Of a stretch of DNA of 20,525 nt, positions 26 through 4,309 are shown piece after piece. The notes beneath the pieces were generated by a model. The model saw only the letters and a program-made list of their open reading frames with translations. It made no database searches and was not told the origin of the DNA. The translations under genes were made by a program, and so were the position numbers. The DNA is taken from positions 1 through 20,525 of IMG/VR virus record IMGVR_UViG_3300044491_001634. One strand, given 5' to 3'. Origin of the DNA: a virus. Numbering within the stretch: the first letter of the stretch is position 1; each line of letters starts with the position of its first letter.

Positions 26-57
26 ACCCCTATTCTTTTGAGTAGGGGTATTTTTTT
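26..57 (+). terminator. Rho-independent terminator of the upstream unit
   Basis: A 10-bp stem (ACCCCTATTC pairing with GAGTAGGGGT, one G-T pair) closed by a TTTT tetraloop is followed by A and seven T residues. This is a textbook intrinsic terminator reading rightward. It would end transcription of genes lying left of the window, so the TerS-TerL genes probably need their own promoter in the following non-coding stretch. Confidence 0.85.
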
Positions 58-358
58 AGCTTTATGATTACAAACAGTACAAACAATATACGTACGGCTT
101 TCATATTTCCGTTCTAAGGGCTTTAAATATACTAGGGGTATGAATACACCCCGGAACTCGTTAGAATCAAAATTTGATAGGTTAGAATGCAAAAGGGGGG
201 TATAGTGTTAAAATGGGTTGGGTGGGGGGCGGAATACCCTCCCTCCCGCAAAAACTAAATTTTCATCAAACCCTGTCAATGTTGGATTTCTACGTAGGAT
301 ACTTGCTTTTTGAGAAATTTCTACGTAAGGTGTGTAAACTACAATAAATTTCTACGTA
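58..358. other. Non-coding region upstream of the terminase genes; candidate promoter/packaging-site region
   Basis: About 300 nt without a credible gene. It holds G-runs at 135-138, 195-200, 215-217, 220-222 and 224-229, a small inverted repeat (GGGGT at 135-139 with ACCCC at 148-152), a GGGTAT/ATACCC pair at 198-203 and 234-239, and three spaced repeats at 286-358. I see no exact TAnnTTTG or strong sigma70-like promoter. Phage cos or pac sites usually lie in or next to the small-terminase gene, and the main promoter of the packaging genes would also be expected here. Assigning either role to this stretch is inference. Confidence 0.5.
286..358 (+). repeat. Three direct repeats of ATTTCTACGTA at exact 31-nt spacing
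   Basis: The 11-mer ATTTCTACGTA occurs at 286-296, 317-327 and 348-358. Copies two and three share a longer 14-mer (AAATTTCTACGTAA at 315-328 and 346-359). The start-to-start distance is 31 nt both times, close to three turns of B-DNA, so bound proteins would sit on the same face of the helix. The core contains the palindrome TACGTA. The last copy ends directly at the ATG of the next ORF. Possible roles are binding sites for the small terminase (like the R sites of lambda cosB), an operator, or origin iterons. Confidence 0.8.
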
Positions 359-532
359 ATGACGTGGCACAAGAAGTCGAGAATCGAGTCAAAAGAGGAG
401 CTAATAGAGGAGATTAAGGTGGTCATCGAGTGCTTGCACGGGATACCATCAATGTCTGATAAGCTGCCTAATTATATATATAACCGCATAGAATCCATTA
501 TAGAGTATGTCAAAGAAAAAGGCTGGGACTAA
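359..532 (+). CDS. Small hypothetical protein upstream of TerS (57 aa)
   Basis: An ATG-initiated ORF of 57 codons (MTWHKKSRIES... to ...YVKEKGWD) ending at a TAA inside the TerS gene, which it overlaps by 26 nt in another frame. The protein is charged, rich in Lys, Glu and Ile, and looks largely helical; no motif is recognised. Its start codon directly abuts the third ATTTCTACGTA repeat, so either the mRNA leader contains that repeat or the message is nearly leaderless. Overlap with TerS suggests translational coupling. It could be a chance ORF, but it fills an otherwise empty stretch and has a protein-like composition. Function unknown. Confidence 0.5.
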   Translation: MTWHKKSRIESKEELIEEIKVVIECLHGIPSMSDKLPNYIYNRIESIIEYVKEKGWD

Positions 533-1082
533 CGAGTTTAGCCCTGAAGAAAAGGTGGCTATTCTGAGGGAGATTGAGGTGATGGGCAACGTGTCCAAAG
601 TGGCTGAGAAATGGGGAGTGTCTAGACAGTCCATATATAACTGGCAAGCTCAGAGAAGAAACCTTGATGAGGAGATAATGATAAGGGAGCAAGCTAAGGA
701 CGTTGTAGCACGCTCAAAATTCGACCCAGAGCTCCTAAAAGACCTTGAGCAGTACCGTAACACTCTTCAGTTCATTGGGACGCTAGAGGAGCGAAAAGAG
801 AAGATGTCGGCTAAAGTAGAGTTCATGCTCATTAAGATTACGACCCTATTAGAGAATCATCCTGACCTAGATGAGATTCACCCGAAGGACTTGAGCAAGA
901 TAATGAAGGATTTGCATGATGTCCGTAAAGAGCTGAGTAATGAACCGACCATTATTATTGAGTACAAGAATAAGCTGAGGGAGCAGACCCTTCAGGTGCT
1001 TCAGGACTTCTTGGACTTAGACCAGCTAAAAGAGTTTGCGCATAGGATGGAAGCAATCGAAGCGGACTACGAGGTTTTATGA
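507..1082 (+). CDS. terS: Terminase small subunit (TerS), putative
   Basis: A 191-aa protein. The N-terminus (about residues 10-50: FSPEEKVAILREIEVMGNVS then KVAEKWGVSRQSIYNW) is a helix-turn-helix of the type found in small terminases and transposase N-termini. The middle and C-terminal parts are highly charged and helical, with probable coiled coil around residues 80-190, fitting the oligomerisation region of TerS. TerS binds the packaging site and regulates the large subunit's ATPase and nuclease. The position upstream of a recognisable large terminase supports the call, although four small ORFs intervene before TerL. The ATG at 507 lies inside the preceding ORF; the stop overlaps the next start (ATGA at 1079-1082). 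An unrelated HTH regulator remains possible. Confidence 0.7.
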   Translation: MSKKKAGTNEFSPEEKVAILREIEVMGNVSKVAEKWGVSRQSIYNWQAQRRNLDEEIMIREQAKDVVARSKFDPELLKDLEQYRNTLQFIGTLEERKEKMSAKVEFMLIKITTLLENHPDLDEIHPKDLSKIMKDLHDVRKELSNEPTIIIEYKNKLREQTLQVLQDFLDLDQLKEFAHRMEAIEADYEVL

Positions 1083-1985: not shown

Positions 1986-2775
1986 CTGGTCTGATTTATT
2001 AGTCAACATAGTAGGACACGAGCCACCCCCTGACTCGCTAGACCTGCGTAATTCTTTTATCGAAAACTGTCTAGCTGACCAAGACGGTTTTAAGGTTACC
2101 CAAGCTGAGATTCATCACACGATGCAGAAGGGTATCTATGACTGGGAGCAGCAAGCCCTATCCAAGAACGCTCGCCTTAATGGATTGATTAGAGCGCCCT
2201 ATAACACGGGTAAGTCCCAACAAGTTCCTATTGGCTTGTCAGCATACATGACCACAAGAAAGCACGAGCTGGAAACGTTGATTGTATCTGCGGACGGTGG
2301 CATCTCTACGAAGAGAATACTGTCCCTAAGAGCCTTGTTCATGAGTGATATGTATAGGTACTGGTGCAGAGAGCACAACTTTAACCCTGTTGAGTTTGAT
2401 AGAACGGATACAGGCTCTACGCAGCGCATCATCGTTAAGAGCCGTAACCGCACAGGTAATCCCACGTATGAGGCGTATGCCGTCCTCACGCAAACCACAG
2501 GTCAACGAGCTGGCGTACTCATTCTTGATGATGTGTGCAATGACGAAGACAGAATATCTACGGCTCGTAGGGAAACGGTGTGGAACAAGGTATCGAACAC
2601 ATGGATTAAGCGTGTACACGATAAAGGTATTGTTTTGAGCGTGTGTACACCATACCATCCTAATGACGCTAACAGCCGTCTGATGAAATCGGGCATTTTT
2701 AACGTACTGCAAATATCGGTAAAAGAAGATAAGACTGGTTACAAGGTCGAGGAGTGGAACAACTTTGAAAAGTAA
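1960..2775 (+). CDS. terL: Large terminase, ATPase domain as a separate protein (split TerL N-part)
   Basis: 271 aa with the motor half of a phage packaging ATPase. Visible motifs are a Walker A-like P-loop at residues 79-86 (APYNTGKS), a Walker B at 175-181 (GVLILDD, catalytic acids D180/D181) and a coupling motif around 227-236 (SVCTPYHPND). The chain stops soon after the ATPase fold, whereas a normal TerL of about 450-600 aa continues into an RNase H-like nuclease. That nuclease is encoded separately at 3524-4309, with two foreign ORFs between. All ATPase motifs look intact, so the pair probably works in trans. It would power DNA translocation through the portal. The stop overlaps the TTG start of the next gene by 11 nt. 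Confidence 0.85.
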   Translation: MSQKQKKNNWSDLLVNIVGHEPPPDSLDLRNSFIENCLADQDGFKVTQAEIHHTMQKGIYDWEQQALSKNARLNGLIRAPYNTGKSQQVPIGLSAYMTTRKHELETLIVSADGGISTKRILSLRALFMSDMYRYWCREHNFNPVEFDRTDTGSTQRIIVKSRNRTGNPTYEAYAVLTQTTGQRAGVLILDDVCNDEDRISTARRETVWNKVSNTWIKRVHDKGIVLSVCTPYHPNDANSRLMKSGIFNVLQISVKEDKTGYKVEEWNNFEK

Positions 2776-3193
2776 AACGTGTAATACGTGTCATATCTCT
2801 AAGCCTCTATCTGAATTTAACAGGGACAATCACGCATCGGATGGTCACAGGAGTCGTTGTAGTAAGTGTAGAAACAAATCACGAAGAGAAACAGAAAAGA
2901 AGAAATATAACTACAAAGTATTTAGAGGGATGGTCTACTGCGTTGAGTGTGAAGGTTTTTATAAGATAGGAGTAACATCGTATGGTATTCGTAAACGACT
3001 TCAATCAATACAAACGGGTAACCCATTTGAGGTAAAAATTGTTTGGGTCAAGCGCACGAATAACGTAGGTAAATACGAGCGCACGATTCACCAACAACTA
3101 AAAGACAGCCACGTAAGGGGTGAGTGGTACGCCATTCCTAGAGTCTTAGCCCTAGAACTTAAACATATAGTAACGCACGATGAAGAAAGCTAA
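2765..3193 (+). CDS. Zinc-ribbon + GIY-YIG (T5orf172-like) endonuclease inserted in terL
   Basis: 142 aa, probably starting at TTG 2765, because the conserved cysteines lie just downstream of it. N-terminal zinc ribbon: CNTC (residues 6-9) and CSKC (32-35). The C-terminal domain, about 55-135, matches the T5orf172/MUG113 branch of the GIY-YIG nucleases: VYC...FYKIGVTS (57-72), R77 as candidate catalytic Arg, the SIQTGNP segment (81-87), E105 in KYERTIHQQL as candidate metal-binding Glu, and RGEWY (118-122). Such proteins are often mobile (homing) endonucleases, with the zinc ribbon giving DNA contact. The location between the two halves of the large terminase fits a selfish insertion. It overlaps both neighbours (11 and 14 nt), so it is expressed with the packaging genes. 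Confidence 0.75.
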   Translation: MKSKTCNTCHISKPLSEFNRDNHASDGHRSRCSKCRNKSRRETEKKKYNYKVFRGMVYCVECEGFYKIGVTSYGIRKRLQSIQTGNPFEVKIVWVKRTNNVGKYERTIHQQLKDSHVRGEWYAIPRVLALELKHIVTHDEES

Positions 3194-3527
3194 AGTAATA
3201 ATGTACGCTCGTTTTGGGGTGAACGTAGAACAAGATGAGATAGACTACATAAAAACAAAGATGGAAGAGTTCTTAGAGATGATAGAGGCTGAACTTGTTG
3301 GTCAGAAGTGGGAGATACTAGCAAAGAATCAAAACTCTAAGGTGATATACGAAATTATAAAGCAATGCAGTAAAAATGGATGGGCAATCTTAACATACGA
3401 CCTTAAAACACTACACCAGCACCATTCAGGTGCAATGTCCTTAATAGCGGAGGGTGACGATGTTGGTGTGCCCGTTTATTTCATTGATGGAGGCGCTGTA
3501 ATGCAAACTTTATTTAGCAGGATATGA
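3180..3527 (+). CDS. Degenerate serine-recombinase-fold protein (resolvase-like, 115 aa) inserted in terL
   Basis: The layout follows the N-terminal catalytic domain of serine resolvases: an opening strand KVIMYARFG (residues 5-13) where active enzymes have Y-x-R-V-S, a helical stretch, GQKWEIL (41-47), then GWAILTYDLKTLHQ (67-80) in place of the usual strand ending K-L-D-R-L-S-R, and GVPVYFIDG near the end (96-104). The nucleophilic serine position holds glycine (G13) and the Asp-Arg of the second motif are missing, so recombinase activity is unlikely. There is no DNA-binding tail. It overlaps the GIY-YIG gene by 14 nt and the TerL nuclease gene by 4 nt (ATGA). It may be an accessory of the insertion, an adaptor, or an unrelated Rossmann-like protein. 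Confidence 0.5.
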   Translation: MKKAKVIMYARFGVNVEQDEIDYIKTKMEEFLEMIEAELVGQKWEILAKNQNSKVIYEIIKQCSKNGWAILTYDLKTLHQHHSGAMSLIAEGDDVGVPVYFIDGGAVMQTLFSRI

Positions 3528-4309
3528 GAGAACCAGATAAGGTCTGGGACATTCCCCTATGGGAAACCAATCACAGTAAACAACGGCTACTCCAAGAGGA
3601 AGCGATGGATTTTCTGTCGTATAAGTTGGGGTACGAAATGAGCGAGGAAACAGATGACCCAACGAGAAAGGCTTACAAACACTTTGATGGATACAATCAC
3701 TACCCTGATGGCAATCTTACGGCTCTCGATTACGATAGTGGTCATCCTGTCTGGCTTTGTGCTGATTTCAACAGGTCTCCTCATTGTTGGGCTCTTCTCC
3801 AAGTTAAAAGAGCTCGTAATGGTCTTAAGCAGTATGTTATTTTCGATGAAATCTTCTCGAAAGAAGCTCTAACTACCGAACAAGCCCTAAAAGCAGTAGA
3901 ATTACTAAGAAAATGGGGTATTTCGAAGGTTTTATTAGCTGGAGACAATACTTCCAACCAAAAAAGTGGTAATTATGGTCGTGTAGGCAAAAACGATTGG
4001 GATTACGTGCGAGAAGTGTTTGATGAACACGACATTTCGTATAAAAACGAGCTAGACATCCAAAATCCTAAGCGAAAGATACGTGTAGACAAGGTAAACA
4101 ACGTAATTTACGCTGGAACCAATGGAGAAAGGCGTTTGTTAGTCAATACTCGCTGCGAACACGTCATAAAGGACTATATGTACTCCATAGTTGATGACAA
4201 AGGGCTAAAAATAGACAATGGAGACAGGGGACATATGTCGGATGCGACAGATTATGCCATTTGGCGTAATGAGCGAGGCAGTAATGCCCCCATGTATGTG
4301 CTCCGCTAG
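3524..4309 (+). CDS. terL: Large terminase, nuclease domain as a separate protein (split TerL C-part)
   Basis: 261 aa holding the RNase H-like nuclease of a phage large terminase. Candidate metal-binding acids are visible in order: D81 in CADFNRSP, D141 in LLAGDNTS, and D240/D243 in HMSDATDYAIWR, with D108/E109 (FDEIF) between. This is the typical D...D...D pattern of TerL nucleases. The N-terminus (VWDIPLWETNHSKQRLLQEE) corresponds to the linker that normally joins the ATPase to the nuclease, so the break falls at the domain border. The ATG overlaps the preceding stop (ATGA), suggesting re-initiation. It would make the cuts that start and end packaging, in partnership with the ATPase protein. 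Confidence 0.85.
   Translation: MREPDKVWDIPLWETNHSKQRLLQEEAMDFLSYKLGYEMSEETDDPTRKAYKHFDGYNHYPDGNLTALDYDSGHPVWLCADFNRSPHCWALLQVKRARNGLKQYVIFDEIFSKEALTTEQALKAVELLRKWGISKVLLAGDNTSNQKSGNYGRVGKNDWDYVREVFDEHDISYKNELDIQNPKRKIRVDKVNNVIYAGTNGERRLLVNTRCEHVIKDYMYSIVDDKGLKIDNGDRGHMSDATDYAIWRNERGSNAPMYVLR

Follow-up and report, generated by a model that had tools for sequence, protein, structure and literature searches.

Direct repeats upstream of a putative terS gene in a marine phage: putative operator sites for a phage HTH regulator

Do short direct repeats beside a terminase gene mark a site of DNA packaging, or do they belong to the control of the genes that follow them? The question is raised by three identical copies of the 11-mer ATTTCTACGTA just upstream of a putative small terminase gene (terS) in the window, the whole 20,525-nucleotide stretch analysed here (positions 1 to 20,525 of IMG/VR record IMGVR_UViG_3300044491_001634). 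The first-pass annotation had offered two readings, a TerS-recognition element or an autoregulatory operator of the terminase operon.

The repeats and the terS operon

The three copies lie on the + strand at positions 286..296, 317..327 and 348..358; all are direct and none is inverted, and exact matching bears out the 31-nt phase described earlier, with spacings of 31 and 31 nt between successive copies. A search for the 11-mer, proposed as a check in the first-pass annotation and run here on the window, found no exact occurrence beyond these three; when two mismatches were allowed there were 15 matches (including the three exact ones) against 9.0 expected, so the rest are near chance. An identical 11-mer triple within 100 nt was found in 0/300 second-order Markov shuffles. 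Copies 2 and 3 have a 14-mer, AAATTTCTACGTAA, in common. The copies had been said to end at the first ATG upstream of TerS; an ATG does abut copy 3, but it starts a 57-amino acid ORF (359..532, + strand). This ORF is the first gene of the terS operon, is conserved (MxWHKK..SMSDKLPNYI.NRIES), and extends past the start of the putative terS gene (507..1082, + strand).

The 191-amino acid product of the latter gene is a putative TerS, a name that rests on its position and its N-terminal HTH, since the TerS models of PHROG and Pfam gave no match to it. The HTH is conserved, the predicted fold is weak outside it, and a structure search with that fold was uninformative. Direct search found 66 relatives of the protein in viral contigs, and use of an alignment raised this to at least 80; a TerS alignment found none in the genome collection, and nothing in the annotated phage collection matched the terS, portal or capsid protein. 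Eleven long relatives were read. The large terminase is present as two ORFs, an ATPase half (1960-2775) and a nuclease half (3524-4309), and the halves are separate in all 11 long relatives, with an ORF of about 115 amino acids between them (3180-3527 in the window, where it has a weak, sub-threshold match to the Resolvase N-terminal domain). The window phage and some relatives also have a GIY-YIG/T5orf172 (MUG113) homing-endonuclease-like ORF between the halves (2765-3193 in the window); this insertion is restricted to them, and the 115-amino acid ORF is present even in long relatives that lack it.

A promoter-like module upstream of terS

An alignment of 62 non-redundant terS-upstream sequences shows a fixed order of elements: AGGGG, TATTAAA, TACCCTCCCTTYCGCAAAA, AAATTTYYACC and TGTCAA, then an optional segment that carries copy 1, TTGC, a 17-nt spacer with copy 2, TATAGTTTGTCAA and ATG. 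TTGCWT-17-TATAGT is found in most relatives, and in many of the 62 sequences TTGC-17-TATAGT surrounds copy 2, which therefore sits in the promoter spacer and -10. The window's version, with a -35-like TTGCTT at 303..308 (+ strand; TTGCAT or TTGCTA in relatives) and, 17 nt further on, a -10-like TAAGGT at 326..331 (+ strand; TATAGT in most relatives) followed by GTGTAAA, is weak, and a plain consensus scan makes no call there; it is on the strength of the relatives, by sequence comparison, that we consider the region upstream of terS to be a conserved promoter-like module. In the window, copy 1 lies directly upstream of the -35-like element, and the last TA of copy 2 is the start of the -10-like element. 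An intrinsic-terminator-like hairpin with a T-run at 26..57 (+ strand) probably terminates the preceding transcription unit. TACCCTCCCTCCCGCAAAAA (the CCCTCCC..CGCAAAA block; 235..254, + strand), which follows the GGGG and TATTAAA elements, is one of the best-conserved upstream blocks of the family and is retained in relatives without the ATTTCTAC copies. The evidence on a Bacteroidota host is divided: the -10 is TATAGTTTG and not the TAnnTTTG (-7) consensus of Bacteroidota promoters (PMC6847099, PMC9723704), but none of the 24 window starts inspected has a Shine-Dalgarno motif, as in the Bacteroidota (PMC6847099).

The copies themselves are less constant than the module. A + strand site is present between -300 and -145 from terS in 37/60 non-redundant relatives and a - strand site in 3/60 (shuffles give 1.8% for the site in this interval), and it is still found upstream of terS in relatives with 43-52% TerS identity (L143, L144, L146). 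No copy can be recognised in the terS promoters of L016-L018, L061 and L062, and the promoter can thus do without the site. The copy 2 position is occupied by ATTTCTACCTATAGTTTGTCAA or a similar sequence in relatives, and copy 3 is kept in close relatives only. Alignment with relatives also points to a weak "copy 0" at 259..279 (+ strand), ATTTTCATCAA followed by TGTCAA; in some of the approximately 74% relatives (L038, for example) it reads ATTTCTACC..TGTCAA and adjoins the -35, because the segment that carries copy 1 is absent there. In this 74% group the next copy upstream of copy 2 is 37 nt away from it. Thus the 31-nt phase holds among the closer relatives but is lost in this group, and since it is kept in close relatives alone and copies are lost elsewhere it is, on the alignment, a lineage-specific outcome, one that plausibly arose from promoter geometry.

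Across the relatives the invariant part of the site is ATTTYTA, which is asymmetric, and the TACGTA palindrome varies; the palindrome is therefore incidental, and the dimeric binder that had been called plausible on account of a palindromic core loses its basis.

Arrays of the same site in relatives

The site is not peculiar to the terS promoter. Relatives have it in arrays, of 2-6 copies each, at 1.5-4 kb upstream of terS, and in the long relatives these lie near -3 kb and -1.8 kb, in addition to the copies in the terS promoter. Only 285 nt of the window precede copy 1, and the distant arrays of this phage itself, like the HTH genes described below, are therefore inferred from relatives. A matrix (consensus TAGATTTCTACGTACCCT) was built from 52 sites in arrays that lie >300 nt from terS on its upstream side, leaving out the window and the terS promoters; its top scores in the window are nevertheless the three copies, with 19.8, 16.3 and 13.0 bits for copies 1, 2 and 3, and 11.1 bits for the next place. 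The matrix derives from forward-strand sites, so strand bias was taken instead from a two-strand regular-expression scan of the 9 kb upstream of terS, which counted 87 sites in the sense of terS against 8 in the opposite one. A strict array pattern run against 2.9 million viral contigs matched in this phage group only. The sites are largely confined between rep-O and terS and are not genome-wide, and no arrays were found in leftward or structural operons. Spacings between neighbouring sites in the arrays range from 17 to 29 nt with a mode of 21 and follow no strict helical phase (vector strength 0.23), contrary to the regular same-face array that had been suggested. Among these related loci most spacings are odd (17, 19, 21, 23, 25, 27 and 29).

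Many arrays start 3-7 nt past a stop codon, and the gene that this codon ends is often a small HTH gene (in G001, G002, G003, G015, G011, L014, L022 and L023); in G001 and L022 another array directly follows a replication-protein-like gene, which in G001 has a Phage_rep_O match, and others follow unrelated small ORFs. An intrinsic terminator lies within about 50 nt after 11/33 arrays (the loci are not independent) compared with 3.4% of random positions. Two other elements were seen in these upstream regions. Shortly downstream of its two distant arrays G001 (L072), the nearest long relative, has near-palindromes, TTATTTAGACTCAATCTAAAT and TTATTTAGACTTATTCTAAAT, at about 27620-27650 and 29175-29200, which may serve the next operons as operators or promoters. 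In two relatives there is a tandem GATTTCTACTGTAGATTTCTACTGT, at -4456 and -4443 from terS in L089 (G015), that visually resembles Cas12a repeat handles.

This placement at gene ends suggests an alternative in which the repeats are RNA-level elements, with the gene-end arrays acting in the transcript (in antitermination or processing) and the terS copies in transcripts that read through from the operon upstream. The strong strand bias, the location in 3' untranslated stretches and the frequency with which arrays run into a terminator all agree with such a role, and several arrays fold better than shuffled sequences (z about -3). However, the good folds come from differing inter-site segments or from the terminator rather than from the repeat, there is no Rfam match, and copies 1 and 2 precede the point at which transcription from the local promoter is expected to start. 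An RNA-level role is more plausible for the gene-end arrays than for the terS array, which does not fold (z -0.95); as an account of the repeats as a whole we think it unlikely. The arrays next to the replication-protein genes in G001 and L022, and the iteron-like look of direct repeats with a 17-25 nt period, might instead indicate replication iterons or partition sites bound by a replication protein, of which the terS cluster would be a secondary copy. This is quite improbable, given that most arrays follow HTH genes or unrelated small ORFs, that the array spacing is irregular, and that the terS copies are built into a set of promoter elements.

The packaging reading, that the repeats are TerS-recognition sites (cosB or pac) beside the terminase genes, has in its favor the position of a repeated site next to terS, the conserved TerS HTH and some enrichment of contig starts 180-580 nt upstream of terS. 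The phage λ cosB is the obvious model, as its R3, R2 and R1 are likewise three short repeats just upstream of terS; there, R2 points the opposite way to R1 and R3 and the array is interrupted by an IHF site (PMC4669245), whereas here all copies are direct, overlap a promoter and are repeated elsewhere, and no cosN was found. In relatives the same sites form arrays kilobases away (-1.5 to -4 kb), at other gene ends, which is what the first-pass annotation had itself named as evidence against a packaging element. Moreover, contig ends differ in sequence and show no shared sharp terminus, G004 and G006 close into circles with overlaps of 123 and 127 nt, and in relatives that have kept the CCCTCCC..CGCAAAA block the copies have degenerated or disappeared. 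We therefore rejected cosB/pac as the best explanation, on the recurrence of the arrays and the promoter overlap, no shared contig terminus having been found either, and regard it as very improbable. If there is a packaging site in this region, the block at 235-254 would be the better candidate, as a lead only, because it is retained where the repeats are not. Finally, AATTTCTAC literally matches the sequence that opens the 5' handle of Cas12a crRNAs, but the notion that the repeats are RNA anti-CRISPR decoys is hardly credible: most sites are without a GTAGA partner arm and loop downstream, so the handle hairpin cannot form, and it is with promoters and gene ends that the sites are associated.

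Putative operators and a candidate regulator

The explanation that we favor, with a probability of roughly 0.55, is that the repeats are putative operator sites for one or more phage HTH regulators and resemble the operators and stoperators of phage L5. It retains the operator half of the autoregulatory operator originally proposed, in that the copies lie in a promoter-like module and belong to a wider site family. Small Cro/C1-like HTH proteins encoded upstream are more plausible binders than TerS. A family of small HTH proteins is encoded in the upstream segment of most relatives for which there is enough upstream sequence (in G001 the genes lie at 28910-29080 and 29925-30155), and one member has a predicted Cro/C1 domain (pLDDT 88.8) whose fold is closest to those of HipB, SinR and P22 c2 (Foldseek E-values are >0.1, with probabilities of 0.9-0.99 for several). 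Variation of the site correlates with HTH sequence (partial r 0.28); the value is higher, however, for a neighbouring block outside the site (0.37), so linkage explains the correlation, and we discarded it as evidence for the binder; with covariation no higher than that of a non-site block, the HTH protein stays a candidate.

Copies 1-3 would then be asymmetric protein-binding sites in the promoter of the packaging/structural operon, with copy 1 just upstream of the -35, copy 2 over the spacer and -10, and copy 3 at the first start codon. A phage regulator, most likely a small Cro/C1-like HTH protein with its gene in the upstream 4 kb, would switch the operon by binding to them, probably with occlusion of the promoter until late in infection, and the same protein on the same-facing gene-end arrays might block or modulate elongation, as at L5 stoperators. 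Protein binding, the identity of the binder, and repression, activation or elongation block are all inferred.

Lambdoid operators are pairs of palindromic half-sites. Like the Cro/C1 operators of those phages (P22 c2, for example), the sites described here occur severally around a -35 and -10 with genes for small Cro/C1-fold proteins nearby, but their invariant part is asymmetric and they nearly always face the same way. In this they resemble mycobacteriophage L5 (cluster A), which also has short asymmetric sites, in promoters and between genes; their orientation goes with that of transcription, and repression depends on it (PMC9283540). The L5 sites have a different sequence and are spread over the genome, whereas the arrays here lie within about 5 kb upstream of terS; the L5 repressor has an HTH and a stoperator domain, whereas the candidates here are Cro/C1 proteins of 56-140 amino acids with no evident second domain. 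No two-domain repressor was seen in the upstream segment searched, where the candidates are the small HTH proteins, and no genomic prophage was found. By this analogy the sites match the L5 architecture of promoter sites plus same-facing gene-end sites, but we set them apart and do not assign them to the L5 type, because they are not genome-wide and the two-domain repressor was not seen.

The practical lesson is that repeats beside terS should be checked for copies elsewhere before they are read as a packaging site. For this marine phage the analysis proposes a control switch on the packaging/structural operon that can be put to the test, and possibly a second, independent case of orientation-dependent operator arrays at gene ends; the phage belongs to a group without counterparts of its terS, portal and capsid proteins in the annotated phage collection. 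Rather more speculatively, the terS promoter and the same-facing arrays at stop codons and terminators could together control elongation as one network under tiny Cro/C1 proteins. Such a network, which we put forward only tentatively, would be a system of stoperator-like or antitermination type in an uncultivated phage lineage, with an origin separate from that of L5.
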